Assembly (NCBI GenBank): GCA_013215285.1
Contig: JABSRD010000006.1
Location: 124,001-188,000 of the forward strand
Length of the DNA: 64,000 bases
Reading direction: 5' to 3'
Origin: Candidatus Nitrosopumilus sp.
Lineage (GTDB): Archaea; Thermoproteota; Nitrososphaeria; Nitrososphaerales; Nitrosopumilaceae
Numbering within the stretch: position 1 is the first letter of the stretch; each line of letters begins with the position of its first letter. Below the pieces are notes generated by a model. The model saw only the letters and a list, made by a program, of their open reading frames with translations, had not been told where the DNA came from and searched no databases. A program made the position numbers and the translations under genes. This document shows positions 54,994 to 60,497 of the stretch, in pieces.

Positions 54994-55013
54994 AATATGG
55001 AAAAGATCTGGAA
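54994..55013 (+). repeat. Solo copy of a 20-nt sequence shared with the MITE-like element
   Basis: Identical over 20 nt to 60052-60071, which spans the inner part of the MITE right end (GGAAAAGATCTGGAA) plus five bases inside it. Could be a fragment left by an earlier copy of that element, or a shared protein-binding site. Confidence 0.65.
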
Positions 55014-55136
55014 GCATTCCAAAAGAGTGTCTTTGTAGTTTCTATTTTTCATGATTTATTGATCGATTGAAAAATTTGAGGACTTTTTTCTAATGTTTTT
55101 GTGGATGAATTTTTGAATAAAGTGACATTTAATTTC

Positions 55137-55156
55137 GTAATCTTGTATAGGATTAT
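55137..55156. promoter_or_regulatory. GTAATC-N8-GATTAT inverted repeat, copy 1
   Basis: CGTAATC, eight bases, GATTATG. About 190 bp upstream of psmA and 140 bp beyond the 3' end of the NirK-like gene. Same spacing as the four other copies. Confidence 0.6.
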
Positions 55157-55294
55157 GTAAATTCGCAATCTAAGAGATATTGCTCTTAGATGGTAAAAAT
55201 GAATTCAGATGAGTATAAAATTTGGGGTTTAATGTAATTCTAGAGTTTATCTAATCTGGCTTAGCTAAATAAAATAAAAAAGAAAAAAGTGATT

Positions 55295-56650
55295 TTAGAT
55301 TTCACTATTGTTGATTTTTGGACTTACAAGTGCATTGAATGCATTTAGATCCTCAAGGGTTCCGCCTATACCATCCTCATTCCAATCAGCATCACATACC
55401 ACTCCAAGTGGTATTCCTGCAACAGTTGGAAGGTCATCAACACCATTAACATCACATGCTAAAACTGCAAAGGCTCCGCCTTTGACAACATCATTTAGTT
55501 TGTGTGTTACTCCAACATATATCCCACTTGATGGGAATATAGTTTCGGTAGTTGAAGATGATCCTGGTGGGACAGTCCATGATTCTTCATTTGACACTGG
55601 TGTCATGAGTTTTTTAGGTGATGAACCATCTCTGACATCCATTTGTGCTGCAATAAAGTGCAATGCTAAGAAGTTATTTGGACCTGGGTTTGTAATGTAC
55701 CAACGTGTGATTTCACCAGTCGGAGCTAAGATTGGTGCTCCATCTACTACTAATGGATCAAGACTCAATGGATTTAGAACTACAATTCCATGATCACCAT
55801 CATTCCAATCAGCACCAATGAATGGTGCATAGTTGAATGCTTGTCCATTTGTTACCATGATATTATTATCACCTGCAACAAATGCACCTAGATCAAATGA
55901 ATGGTTATTTCCTATAGAATTACCATTTTCGTCAACTTCAGGTGTTGTGTACATATCTGCAAACATTACATTGTATTCAACTGCTGGTGCCTTATCAGCG
56001 CCTACTGGTTGAACTACAATATTTCCATACATTCCATTATTGATGTGAGTCCACAAATTCATCAATCCATTATCTGTACAATGGTACAGATAAGAGCCTG
56101 AATCTTCTGCTGTCCAAATCCAAGTCTTTGAATGACCTTGTTGAATTGGACCAGAGTTCACATGTTCATTCCCAGTTAGTGCATGTTGATCAATACTGTG
56201 AATGTGTTGATTGTCAATGTCACTCACTAGAGTAACTTGAACTGTATCACCTAGATCAACGGATATTGATGGACCGGGAGCTGATGCGTTTGCTACTGCA
56301 GCATCTGCACAGTTATAGTGTGGACCAGAGTGATCTTGTCCGTTAACTGTATCATGAGATCTTACATTATCTGATAGATCTGTAACTAATTCCATGTCTT
56401 CCTCATCTATCAATACAAATGTCCATGATTCAGGATAGAAAACTCCAACAGAGCTTCCTACAATTAATGAATCAATGTCATTGTCTGGGTAGATTAGTTG
56501 TCCATCTGTCTCGTATGCACAGAGAACAAATGATTTATCAATTTGTGTCTCTGGAATAGAATGTGCTTGTACGTTATTTGTAAATCCTACAAATACCATT
56601 GATACTGCAAATAAAACAGCAAATGATACTGCAAGTATTTTTTTCGTCAT
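55295..56650 (-). CDS. NirK-like two-domain copper oxidase with a dockerin/EF-hand-like tail
   Basis: 451 residues. Signal peptide (KKILAVSFAVLFAVSMVFVG, cleavage near VQAHS). Two cupredoxin domains: H151, C191, H202 and M207 form a type 1 copper site, H156, H190 and H331 the type 2 site; D154 sits three after H151 as the catalytic Asp of NirK (His95, Asp98, His100 spacing). This is therefore nitrite-reductase-like, as known in ammonia-oxidising archaea, rather than a laccase. The C-terminus adds a Ca-binding-like DADWNEDG and a helix. Expected outside the membrane. Copy 2 of the repeat motif lies about 110 bp upstream. Confidence 0.85.
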   Translation of the reverse strand: MTKKILAVSFAVLFAVSMVFVGFTNNVQAHSIPETQIDKSFVLCAYETDGQLIYPDNDIDSLIVGSSVGVFYPESWTFVLIDEEDMELVTDLSDNVRSHDTVNGQDHSGPHYNCADAAVANASAPGPSISVDLGDTVQVTLVSDIDNQHIHSIDQHALTGNEHVNSGPIQQGHSKTWIWTAEDSGSYLYHCTDNGLMNLWTHINNGMYGNIVVQPVGADKAPAVEYNVMFADMYTTPEVDENGNSIGNNHSFDLGAFVAGDNNIMVTNGQAFNYAPFIGADWNDGDHGIVVLNPLSLDPLVVDGAPILAPTGEITRWYITNPGPNNFLALHFIAAQMDVRDGSSPKKLMTPVSNEESWTVPPGSSSTTETIFPSSGIYVGVTHKLNDVVKGGAFAVLACDVNGVDDLPTVAGIPLGVVCDADWNEDGIGGTLEDLNAFNALVSPKINNSEI

Positions 56651-56755
56651 TAAAACATTGTACTTGATTTTAATAATATAAGTTGTTTATAAATTAAGAT
56701 GATCGGATCTTCATTTTATTAGTCTGTTTTATCATAATAAAATATACAATTTTTC

Positions 56756-56775
56756 GTAATCCATAGTAAGATTAC
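56756..56775. promoter_or_regulatory. GTAATC-N8-GATTAC inverted repeat, copy 2 (most symmetric)
   Basis: Extends to TTCGTAATC and GATTACGAA, a perfect 9-bp inverted repeat, 106-125 bp upstream of the NirK-like start. Confidence 0.65.
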
Positions 56776-56890
56776 GAATTATGTTCCAACCATTCTATGA
56801 TCTCAAAAATATCTCCATATATCAAATTTGGATAAAATGGGATGCACTTACGCATAACGTAGATTAATTAAAATAAAAAATGAATTGATG

Positions 56891-57196
56891 TTAGAGTGCT
56901 CTTTTAACAGGTACGTTGTTGTCTATTGTAATCCATGAACCAAATCCATTCCCATATCCAGATAAGCAATGTTTGCCAGGTGGGCAGATTAATTTTTCAC
57001 AAACTAATCCATCCAGATTATCATCAGCTGCAATTGCTGCTCTAAGATCATGTGCACGAGACGTCTCTACTAGTTCAAAGACTTGAGGACATCCCAATCT
57101 TACGACAGGACGATCTGCCATTGCTGGAACAATTGCACTCATACCCATAACCACTGCAATCATAACTATTGTAGTAATTGCTAATGTTTTATTCAT
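56891..57196 (-). CDS. Small secreted Cys-containing protein
   Basis: 101 residues: signal peptide (MNKTLAITTIVMIAVVMGMS, cleavage near AMADR) and a mature part with four Cys (LGCPQVF, LVCEKLICPPGKHCLSG) and a DDNLDGLVC loop that recalls Ca-binding excalibur-like motifs. No family confirmed. It lies upstream of the NirK-like gene on the same strand with 240 bp between; copy 3 of the repeat motif is about 90 bp before its own start. Confidence 0.65.
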   Translation of the reverse strand: MNKTLAITTIVMIAVVMGMSAIVPAMADRPVVRLGCPQVFELVETSRAHDLRAAIAADDNLDGLVCEKLICPPGKHCLSGYGNGFGSWITIDNNVPVKRAL

Positions 57197-57286
57197 TAAT
57201 AATTTACGAGATTATGAAGTTAATAAAAGAATCTTTTTGTCCAAAATAAATATTACATTAATAGATCTTAAAACAATCATTATTAC

Positions 57287-57306
57287 GTAATCTACCTAAG
57301 GATTAT
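57287..57306. promoter_or_regulatory. GTAATC-N8-GATTAT inverted repeat, copy 3
   Basis: ACGTAATC, spacer, GATTATGAA; 91-110 bp upstream of the small secreted protein gene and 28 bp beyond the end of the next gene. Confidence 0.6.
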
Positions 57307-57334
57307 GAATGGTAAACGAGTTTTCGTTTAATCA

Positions 57335-57706
57335 TCAATGTTTCCAATTTTGTGCCTCAATCATACAATCAGAATAGTATTTTTCACTTACATAGTCACA
57401 AACTCTCTCTTGATATTTTCTAAAGAATTTACCCAGACAATCATATTGGTCTTTTTCATCTTCAAGTAATGAAACACACATTCCAGGGTCTCTTTTCATG
57501 TATGCAATGTTACTTATACAAAATTTTGGTTCATCAAAATTAAAACACATTTGAGGATTATCAAAATTTAATGCAGAATCAACTTTTTTGGCAATAGATT
57601 TTTCTGAAGAAGAAAATCCCAATGAATCAATTGCAGAAAAAGCAACAACTATGACTATACTTAACATCATAAATCCTCCAATAGTTAATCCAAGCTGAGG
57701 CTTCAC
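57335..57706 (-). CDS. Exported or membrane-anchored Cys-rich protein
   Basis: 123 residues. An N-terminal hydrophobic segment (LGLTIGGFMMLSIVIVVAFS) acts as signal or anchor; the remainder has six Cys (NPQMCFNFDEPKFC, DPGMCVSLL, QYDCLGKF, ERVCDYV, YSDCM), probably three disulfides outside the membrane. Unknown family. Copy 4 of the repeat motif lies about 210 bp upstream, nearer to the divergent RHH gene. Confidence 0.6.
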   Translation of the reverse strand: MKPQLGLTIGGFMMLSIVIVVAFSAIDSLGFSSSEKSIAKKVDSALNFDNPQMCFNFDEPKFCISNIAYMKRDPGMCVSLLEDEKDQYDCLGKFFRKYQERVCDYVSEKYYSDCMIEAQNWKH

Positions 57707-57916
57707 TTTATTAGATTAATTAGTAATATTTGTAATAAAATCGTGGGTTTTTAATTTCAAAGAACAGTATTTTATATGTAAAAATCGAAAATTAATCTAA
57801 GACTCTAAAATTTTTCATATAACCAACATATTGGAATAATCATCATCCTAATGATCATGAAAGAGAACGTATAGTAAAATTCATGAAATATACTCAAGCT
57901 AAATCATACAATTTAC

Positions 57917-57936
57917 GTAATCTCTACTAGGATTAC
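57917..57936. promoter_or_regulatory. GTAATC-N8-GATTAC inverted repeat, copy 4
   Basis: ACGTAATC, spacer TCTACTAG, GATTACGAA; 59-78 bp upstream of the small RHH gene, the placement expected for an operator or activator site. Confidence 0.65.
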
Positions 57937-57994
57937 GAAGCTTGATCAAAATGAAAGACATGTGAGATAAAAGAATATGATTGTGAATTAAAAT

Positions 57995-58138
57995 ATGTCA
58001 AAAAGAGTTACAGTTATGATTGATGATGATTTGGATAAAAAATTAAGATTACTCCAGGCAAAAGAAATTGTAAAATCTACAAAATCAGTAAGCTTCTCTA
58101 GTACTTTGAATGATGTTTTACGTAAGAGACTCAAGTGA
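57995..58138 (+). CDS. Small ribbon-helix-helix-like regulator (47 residues)
   Basis: KRVTVMIDDDLDKKLRLLQA is an RHH strand followed by the first helix; SVSFSSTLNDVLRKRLK gives the second helix. Too short for another DNA-binding fold. The repeat motif lies just upstream, and it is the only regulator among the five motif copies, so it is a candidate binder. ATG with a TATA-like AAAATA upstream. Confidence 0.6.
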   Translation: MSKRVTVMIDDDLDKKLRLLQAKEIVKSTKSVSFSSTLNDVLRKRLK

Positions 58139-58199
58139 ATAGAGAAAGGTCGTATCAATTTTGGAAAATACACCTATACGATAGTTATGTAGAATTTAC

Positions 58200-58219
58200 G
58201 TAATCTATCTAACGATGAC
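58200..58219. promoter_or_regulatory. GTAATC-N8-GATGAC inverted repeat, copy 5 (one mismatch)
   Basis: ACGTAATC, spacer TATCTAAC, GATGACG. In the 250-bp gap between the ends of the RHH gene and the convergent HxlR-type gene, so no promoter role is obvious for this copy. Confidence 0.5.
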
Positions 58220-58390
58220 GCAACAATACAATCAAAACATAGGCATGAAATTCTATGATCATACAAACTAGTAGAAAGTACAAGAATCTACAATTACAAA
58301 ATAGTACTGCATACGGAGTTGTACTTGTTGTATTATGGTAAATCATAGGTGTATTGTTTATGAAATTCTAGGCGTATGGGAATTGAACTA

Positions 58391-58880: not shown

Positions 58881-59500
58881 ATGGTAAGTCATGCTACATT
58901 ACAGAACCTGATCTCTTCAGATGTATTAAAAAAAATCTGTATGGATGAAGGAGTTGATGATGTAGGATTCGTTGAGATAGACGAAGGGCTTTGGGTTCAG
59001 TTAAAGAAGAAGTTTTGGCATTATATCCAAAAACTAAAACCATAATTTCAATTTGTATTCGTACTAATCCAGAAAATATTCAAGGCATATCTAGATCATT
59101 AGCTAATGAAGAATTCCACAAAAATTATGATGAAGTTTCGGGAGGTATAATTAAAATGAAAAAAAGTTCTACTACTCATACATATTATGGTCAGACCGTG
59201 TTGATGTATCCTCTCGAGGGAGATTATGGTTTTCTATTTCTTACTCCTGATTTAACTAACAATGTTTCATCTACTCCAATGGGTGATGGTATAGTCGAAC
59301 TTCACATAGAAAGCCTGAGTTTACATGAACACATAGAAGATGATGCATTATTCCACGTGTATGCTTCCAATCCAAGCGCAAATCAAGAATTTGGTGAAAT
59401 TGCACAAGCATTTTCATATATTGTCATAGCAATAGGAATATTACAATTGCGAAAAGAACTTGTCAAAGGTTTGATTTGGATTAGAAATATAAAAAACTAA
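58881..59500 (+). pseudogene. Frameshifted gene resembling the N-terminus of an epoxyqueuosine reductase-like protein
   Basis: From the ATG at 58881 the frame reads through DDVGFVEIDEG and stops soon after; the next frame continues VKEEVLALYPKTKTIISICI and SRSLANEEFHKNYDEVSGG. Together they match the start of COG1600-like/QueG-type proteins (GFVEID, then a PxTKTIIS strand, then SLANxEFH). One extra G in the run at 58986-58988 would rejoin them as EGALGSVKEE. After about residue 95 the sequence is unlike a QueG core (no Cys for 4Fe-4S clusters), so the gene also looks truncated or fused. Divergent from the HxlR gene, and probably its target. Confidence 0.6.
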
Positions 59501-59658
59501 AAACAAATGATCAGCAAATTTTCGTTAGGATGTTTATCAAATTTCCAACAACACCAATTTGTAAAATCTTTCTAGTTGCAATGATGTACCGTCTGTTTTA
59601 TCGCCTAAGAGGGGGGCATTCTATTTTTTGTGATTATCTATAATCTCCTTTGTAAACT

Positions 59659-60081
59659 AAAACCCTATTTCCGGATCTTTTCCAAAAAACCCTATTTCCG
59701 GAAATAGAATTTCTAATTATTAGAAAAATTATTCTCATAAAACCACTCAAAATTCCAGTTTTGATACATCTTGTAGATCTACTAATCATAAATGCGATAT
59801 ATCCAAGAATCTACAAACTATTATTTGAAAATCTATACCTGATTAATTGAACGATCTATTCGTAGCAATTTCAAAGCTAATGATTCTACACTTTTCTATT
59901 CGTATGTTTTTTCTATAGCTATAACTTAGCTATGACTGTAGCTACCATTTAGGGTATCAAAAGCTATGACTAGAGATATGACTATGATTGTAGCTTTTAG
60001 AAAAGATACCTCTAAGATACCATGAAGGTATCTTCTTAGTCGTTAAAGTGCAATATGGAAAAGATCTGGAAATAGGGTTTT
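59659..60081. mobile_element. MITE-like element with 25-bp terminal inverted repeats
   Basis: Left end AAAACCCTATTTCCGGATC and right end (GGAAAAGATCTGGAAATAGG) pair at 24 of 25 positions over 59659-59683 and 60057-60081. The interior is non-coding, with a second copy of the first 17 bases (59686-59702), the 16-bp palindrome CTATTTCCGGAAATAG (59692-59707), a GGTATC...GATACC hairpin with AAGCTA/TAGCTT arms (59953-60010) and AAGATACC-ATGAA-GGTATCTT (60014-60034). No target duplication can be seen with confidence. It may move with a transposase coded elsewhere. Confidence 0.65.
59692..59707. repeat. 16-bp perfect palindrome inside the MITE-like element
   Basis: CTATTTCCGGAAATAG reads identically on both strands; it embeds the core of the element end (CCCTATTTCCGG). 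Confidence 0.85.
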
Positions 60082-60113: not shown

Positions 60114-60497
60114 ATGACTAATCAACTATTAGAGTTCAAAGAAATTATCAAGTCAAAACAAATTTCTGAACAAAGAAAGCCTGACAAACAAACTAGAATA
60201 CTACTACTTTACTTATTTACTAGTACTAGGGGTGGATTAACTAGATTACGTATCATCATTCATTTACTTGAAAAATCATACAACACCCATCAACTAGCAC
60301 AAAAACTTGATCTTGATTACAAAGCAGTTCAACATCACATGAGAGTTTTAGAGAAAAATAATATGGTCTCAAAAATTGGTGAAAAATATGGTGCAATCTT
60401 TCACTTGTCAAATTTTCTTGAAATGAATATCAATGCATTAGATGAGGCAATTGATAAACTAGATAAAAAAATGAATCACAAAAAGGTGTACATGTAA
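60114..60497 (+). CDS. ArsR-like winged-helix regulator
   Basis: 127 residues. A charged N-terminal stretch, then a winged helix (GGLTRLRIIIHLLEKSYNTH, LAQKLDLDYKAVQHHMRVLE, KNNMVSKIGEKYGAIFHL) with the HHMRVLE recognition helix seen in ArsR-type regulators, then a short helix (NALDEAIDKLDKKM). No Cys for metal sensing. The signal is unknown. It begins 32 bp after the right end of the MITE-like element. Confidence 0.75.
   Translation: MTNQLLEFKEIIKSKQISEQRKPDKQTRILLLYLFTSTRGGLTRLRIIIHLLEKSYNTHQLAQKLDLDYKAVQHHMRVLEKNNMVSKIGEKYGAIFHLSNFLEMNINALDEAIDKLDKKMNHKKVYM

Follow-up and report, generated by a model that had tools for sequence, protein, structure and literature searches.

Palindromic 28-bp sites with ordered centre types probably delimit gene cassettes in Nitrosopumilaceae

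The stretch of DNA analysed here (the window, 64,000 nucleotides of a Candidatus Nitrosopumilus sp. contig) contains five copies of the motif GTAATC-N8-GATTAY, starting at positions 55137, 56756, 57287, 57917 and 58200, with one gene between each pair of successive copies (cassettes 1 to 4). The five sites lie on the + strand. Site 1 (55133–55160, centre type TTGTATAG) is downstream of the gene of a 451-aa NirK-like multicopper oxidase (cassette 1, 55295–56650, − strand; Cu-oxidase_3, 4.3e-10). Site 2 (56752–56779, CATAGTAA), site 3 (57283–57310, TACCTAAG) and site 4 (57913–57940, TCTACTAG) enclose two − strand genes for probably exported proteins of 101 aa (cassette 2, 56891–57196) and 123 aa (cassette 3, 57335–57706), neither of which matched Pfam. 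Between site 4 and site 5 (58196–58223, terminal type TATCTAAC with a GATGACGCAACAATACAA flank that is also the terminal flank of integrase-bearing arrays) lies the gene of a 47-aa RHH-like protein (cassette 4, 57995–58138, + strand), a recurrent cassette in other arrays. Since this protein matched neither Pfam nor NCBIfam, the RHH label was given by inspection. The original prediction of five copies with a fixed N8 spacer holds for all positions and for four exact copies, whereas the fifth carries one mismatch (GATGAC). The perfect 9-bp inverted repeat that it described was borne out in the arms of site 2 (TTCGTAATC/GATTACGAA), and copies 1 and 5 were correctly placed outside promoters, which is a key clue to a role other than that of operators.

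The array lies within a 5,058-bp insert bounded by two exact copies of a 20-bp direct repeat, AATATGGAAAAGATCTGGAA (54994–55013 and 60052–60071, spacing 5058), between psmA and an HTH gene at 60114. In 17 relatives this locus is unoccupied: psmA is followed by the same HTH gene at 105–131 bp and then by gdhA, and the psmA-HTH intergenic region of relatives holds a single copy or close variant of the 20-bp target sequence. Without the insert, the psmA-HTH spacing of the window would be 111 bp. These observations are best explained by entry of the 5-kb insert, with its array, in a separate event at the 20-bp sequence. The target sequence recurs, inverted, at 59658–59684; this third copy hints at a second, nested event. 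Two + strand ORFs that overlap in different frames beside HxlR (58881–59045 and 58991–59500) may be one frame-disrupted gene. The ORF pair and HxlR are also found together in G016 at another locus, where they occur without sites, so that synteny on the HxlR side was uninformative.

A genome-wide motif scan, as had been proposed, gave different answers for the short and long forms of the motif. In the 1.66-Mb window genome, the short pattern, searched with a tolerance of one mismatch, stayed near background (22/26, reversed control 18/14). CGTAATC-N8-GATTAYG was concentrated at this locus, with four of its six places within these 3 kb and none for the reversed control. Because the short motif is near background, longer arms were used for searching. 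The consensus of 190 sites is the dif-like TTWCRTAATCY-N6-RGATTAYGWAA, in which two symmetric 11-bp arms, inverted to each other, enclose a central region. Conservation reaches beyond the motif first described: a T occupies position -1 in 94% of these sites, although this position played no part in selecting them, and the resulting site is 28 bp long with an 11-6-11 architecture. The strict pattern is present in 33 of 250 genomes of the family, mostly MAGs, and the reversed control gave one match across all 250. Relatives within Nitrosopumilaceae carry dozens of sites, with a maximum of 41 per genome. ORFs of 100 aa or more make up 70% of the DNA, yet only 3 of 192 sites fall within one.

The sites are found at both the 3' and the 5' ends of genes. 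The median distance between them is 662 bp, and in most cases a single short host-type gene, or a few of them, lies in between. Arrays in G016, G015, G047, G049, G104 and other genomes enclose unrelated genes, for methyltransferases, a histidine kinase, CheY, GNAT, P-II, a chemotaxis receptor and ferredoxin-type proteins. Defence-like cargo resembling SIR2, OLD/Gaj, Ari-type and NYN proteins was also identified (L147, L136 and L166, in G104, G049 and G035). The nitrogen/copper theme suggested for the locus thus does not extend to other arrays, whose cargo runs from methyltransferases and signalling proteins to defence-like genes. The NirK-like oxidase itself scored 96.7 bits against the Cu nitrite reductase model, under the cut-off of 296.3, and no second match at E<=1e-60 was detected in 95 genomes of the genus; together, these results make it look like accessory cargo.

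The original prediction offered either a regulon or a short interspersed repeat, and its repeat half was right. As a regulon, the sites would be operators for a regulator, perhaps the 47-aa RHH-like protein, that controls the NirK-like and exported-protein genes. Sites 2, 3 and 4 do precede start codons by about 60–210 bp, a palindrome is a suitable target for a dimeric regulator, and the RHH-like gene recurs near sites: most loci with a homologue of it have a site about 60–200 bp away. However, this gene is itself a recurrent cassette, the sites are not confined to promoters but flank 3' ends equally, and they bracket genes without a shared function in dozens of loci. Operators also leave unexplained the ordered centre types, the breaks of similarity at sites and the adjoining tyrosine recombinase described below. 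Site position, typed order and breakpoints led us to reject the regulon, which we regard as very improbable.

The central 8 bp of the sites fall into types that recur in one order and one orientation across arrays: TTGTATAG, CATAGTAA, TAACTACA, then TACCTAAG or TCATATAC, TCTACTAG, TACCTAAC or TATCTAAC, and TGGTACTA. The order in the window agrees (TTGTATAG, CATAGTAA, TACCTAAG, TCTACTAG, TATCTAAC). Repeated ordered pairs of types were observed 31 times, against a mean of 6.8 and a maximum of 15 in 5,000 shuffles. The ranked concordance of type order, 89 to 3, is descriptive only, because the ranks were derived from the same data. Typed sites are nearly all in one orientation in the 24 scored arrays. 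The two commonest typed slots hold nine cargos each, and no pair of these is related at E<=1e-3. Direct duplicates of one type occur in L058, L064 and L147. A second set of centre types was found in G049, G104, G102, G103 and similar genomes; the arrays with defence-like cargo in L147, L136 and L166 carry this set. Common descent of the arrays may account for part of the fixed order.

Sequence similarity between arrays often breaks exactly at the sites. When arrays were compared, 85 of 593 alignment ends fell at a site in both sequences, while in the control 15 of 593 random points fell at a site in one sequence. Individual breaks are abrupt and lie within the site. L064 and L069, for example, share 1,924 bp at 99.7% identity as far as a TAACTACA site, past which they are unrelated. 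In G047, a 541-bp cassette occurs at two loci with 98% identity, each copy flanked by sites on both sides. Swaps at the level of cassettes were observed between loci and between species, and none between strains. Some swaps alter the centre type (TACCTAAG versus TAACTACA), indicating that matching is not strict or that centres mutate.

A tyrosine recombinase family of about 302 aa adjoins the arrays; one member is encoded in G032 (L109:1109–2014), and G016 has a homologue. A site lies 3' of the recombinase gene in 13 of 16 loci and 5' of it in none. Four of five loci of this family have a site within 1.5 kb, compared with 0 of 25 loci of other tyrosine recombinases (P 2e-4), and sites are present in 8 of the 10 genomes that carry the family (P 1.5e-6). 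The expected catalytic positions (Arg, Lys, Arg, and Tyr within HYTDYS) are invariant, and the fold of the predicted structure (mean pLDDT 86.9) matches XerA, IntI4, lambda Int and Cre, XerA and IntI4 being the nearest solved proteins by sequence. The family scores far under the cut-offs of both the integron-integrase model (37–41 bits, cut-off 265) and XerA_Arch (76–82 bits, cut-off 220). Its close relatives, searched for in 84,980 species genomes, were found in Nitrosopumilus and other Thaumarchaeota/Nitrososphaerota MAGs only. A search of the window genome found no recombinase of this family, and some genomes have sites and no Pfam integrase match at E<=1e-3, among them the complete G092 (L157, L158) with 11 sites.

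Two further explanations bear on these data. The first is that the sites are passive short interspersed repeats or terminators at which homologous recombination shuffles neighbouring genes. Their palindromic, intergenic nature fits, as does the lack of a detectable recombinase of the array-associated family in several site-bearing genomes. Nevertheless, 28 bp is short for homologous recombination, and passive repeats explain neither the typed order nor the presence of sites 3' of one recombinase family and not of others; we give this explanation little credence. The second, which we consider improbable though less so, is accretion: whole integrase-bearing elements would have inserted one after another, each leaving an attachment site, and the single-gene intervals would be decayed remnants. 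The recombinase gene often follows a D5/SF3-like helicase-primase gene, of a kind typical of integrative elements, and the site 3' of the recombinase gene would suit such elements. On the other hand, most intervals (median 662 bp) contain a single short gene of host type or a few such genes, both copies of the intact 541-bp cassette have a site at either end, and a fixed type order is unexpected from random accretion.

The end of the arrays is also conserved. L064, L069 and L109 share one layout: terminal site, leader of about 300 bp, site and integrase. The leader is non-coding and measures about 290–300 bp (L064:6617–6905, L109:777–1075). Positions 58222–58378 of the window (+ strand) are 81–83% identical to these leaders of G016 and G032, and cover the first half of the stretch that in relatives runs from the terminal site to the site next to the integrase. 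Five arrays without an integrase in view, that of the window included, keep only the first 130–155 bp of the leader, as if this were a natural boundary. A structured RNA in the leader was considered and dropped: the predicted fold is strong in L064 (z -4.9) but not in the window (z -1.1), and two-sided change was observed in only 1 of 35 pairs.

Taken together, the motifs are probably not operators but the sites at which site-specific recombination exchanges the cassettes of an address-coded array. The 28-bp site, with its two inverted 11-bp arms and central region, would be the target of a single tyrosine recombinase, presumably of the family that adjoins the arrays, and the window sites would bound four one-gene cassettes of an integrase-less array. 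Cassettes could move between arrays or replicons through sites with matching centres. Because the centre type changes from each site to the next, in a fixed order, a cassette would fit only the matching slot, in a natural form of recombinase-mediated cassette exchange. The route may be cointegration followed by resolution, and same-type duplicates would reflect insertion at one site. We lean, with more reserve, towards a dedicated Nitrosopumilaceae system that combines a lineage-specific tyrosine recombinase, ordered central addresses and slot-confined cassettes, as a natural analogue of cassette exchange by engineered recombinase systems.

The best explanation is a system that works like the pdif/xrs modules of Acinetobacter and like integrons, and falls under neither definition. 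The closest tested precedent is that of Acinetobacter, in which XerCD sites flank adaptive genes (PMC6449649, PMC11705084). Recombination of xrs cassettes was reported only between related centres and gives plasmid cointegrates that can be resolved via a second compatible pair (PMC11705084), a rule that would explain the typed slots found here. Both systems have sites of the 28-bp class with two arms and a short centre (11-6-11 in our 190 sites) around one or a few adaptive genes, and in both neighbouring sites have different centres. They differ in that the pdif/xrs modules are moved by host XerCD, have distinct XerC and XerD arms and often inverted flanking sites, and are mostly on plasmids, whereas the present arrays have a dedicated recombinase of a different family at the array end, symmetric arms and one orientation with a fixed type order, and are on chromosomal contigs.

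Integrons, including archaeal ones (PMC9668308), likewise consist of arrays of mostly single-gene cassettes, with an integrase at one end next to a conserved leader (attI-like in position; L064, L069 and L109 here) and many arrays without integrase (CALIN-like). Their attC sites recombine as folded single strands with extrahelical bases, whereas ours, judged by their consensus, are short symmetric 11-6-11 palindromes that do not resemble attC. The present recombinase scores far under the integron-integrase cut-off, gene orientations are mixed, and sites are typed and ordered. Archaeal XerA/dif (PMC2958812, PMC8371274) shares the 11-6-11 site, and XerA structures are the nearest solved ones to the recombinase; dif occurs once per circular chromosome, in contrast to up to 41 sites per genome here, and the recombinase is under the XerA cut-off. 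Thaumarchaea are reported to lack xerA (PMC2958812, PMC8371274). Integrated mobile elements of Thaumarchaea resemble the present loci in having a tyrosine integrase beside replication genes and islands at direct repeats, but cassette arrays are not described in that study (PMC6563490), which lists mobile integrons as undetected in archaea and considers that counterparts may await discovery.

We found no report of such arrays in the open-licence literature, and this is apparently a so far unreported, ordered gene-cassette system of ammonia-oxidising archaea. Few marine microbes are as abundant as these archaea, and, to our knowledge, the route by which they gain adaptive genes is poorly known. 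If correct, the present reading provides a counterpart of mobile integrons whose ordered, type-matched sites differ from integron sites, and through which archaea would trade accessory genes such as that of a copper enzyme. The NirK-like gene would then be mobile accessory cargo and no evidence of core nitrite metabolism. The recombination rules would be testable and might give orthogonal site sets.

As for a viral vehicle, which was considered and rejected, IMG/VR contigs contained neither a relative of the recombinase nor any exact match to sites of two common types. Where divergent members of the recombinase family occur (L115, L112 and L121), the sites near them have different, still palindromic arms (CTTAATC/GATTAAG, GGTAATC/GATTACC and GCGCCATC/GATGACGC), which suggests that arms and enzyme change together. 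In the window genome (G000), P-II-like genes (L054:6169–6537 and L056:6373–6717) adjoin solitary sites, and in G016 one cassette bracketed by sites is a P-II gene (L065:7235–7603).
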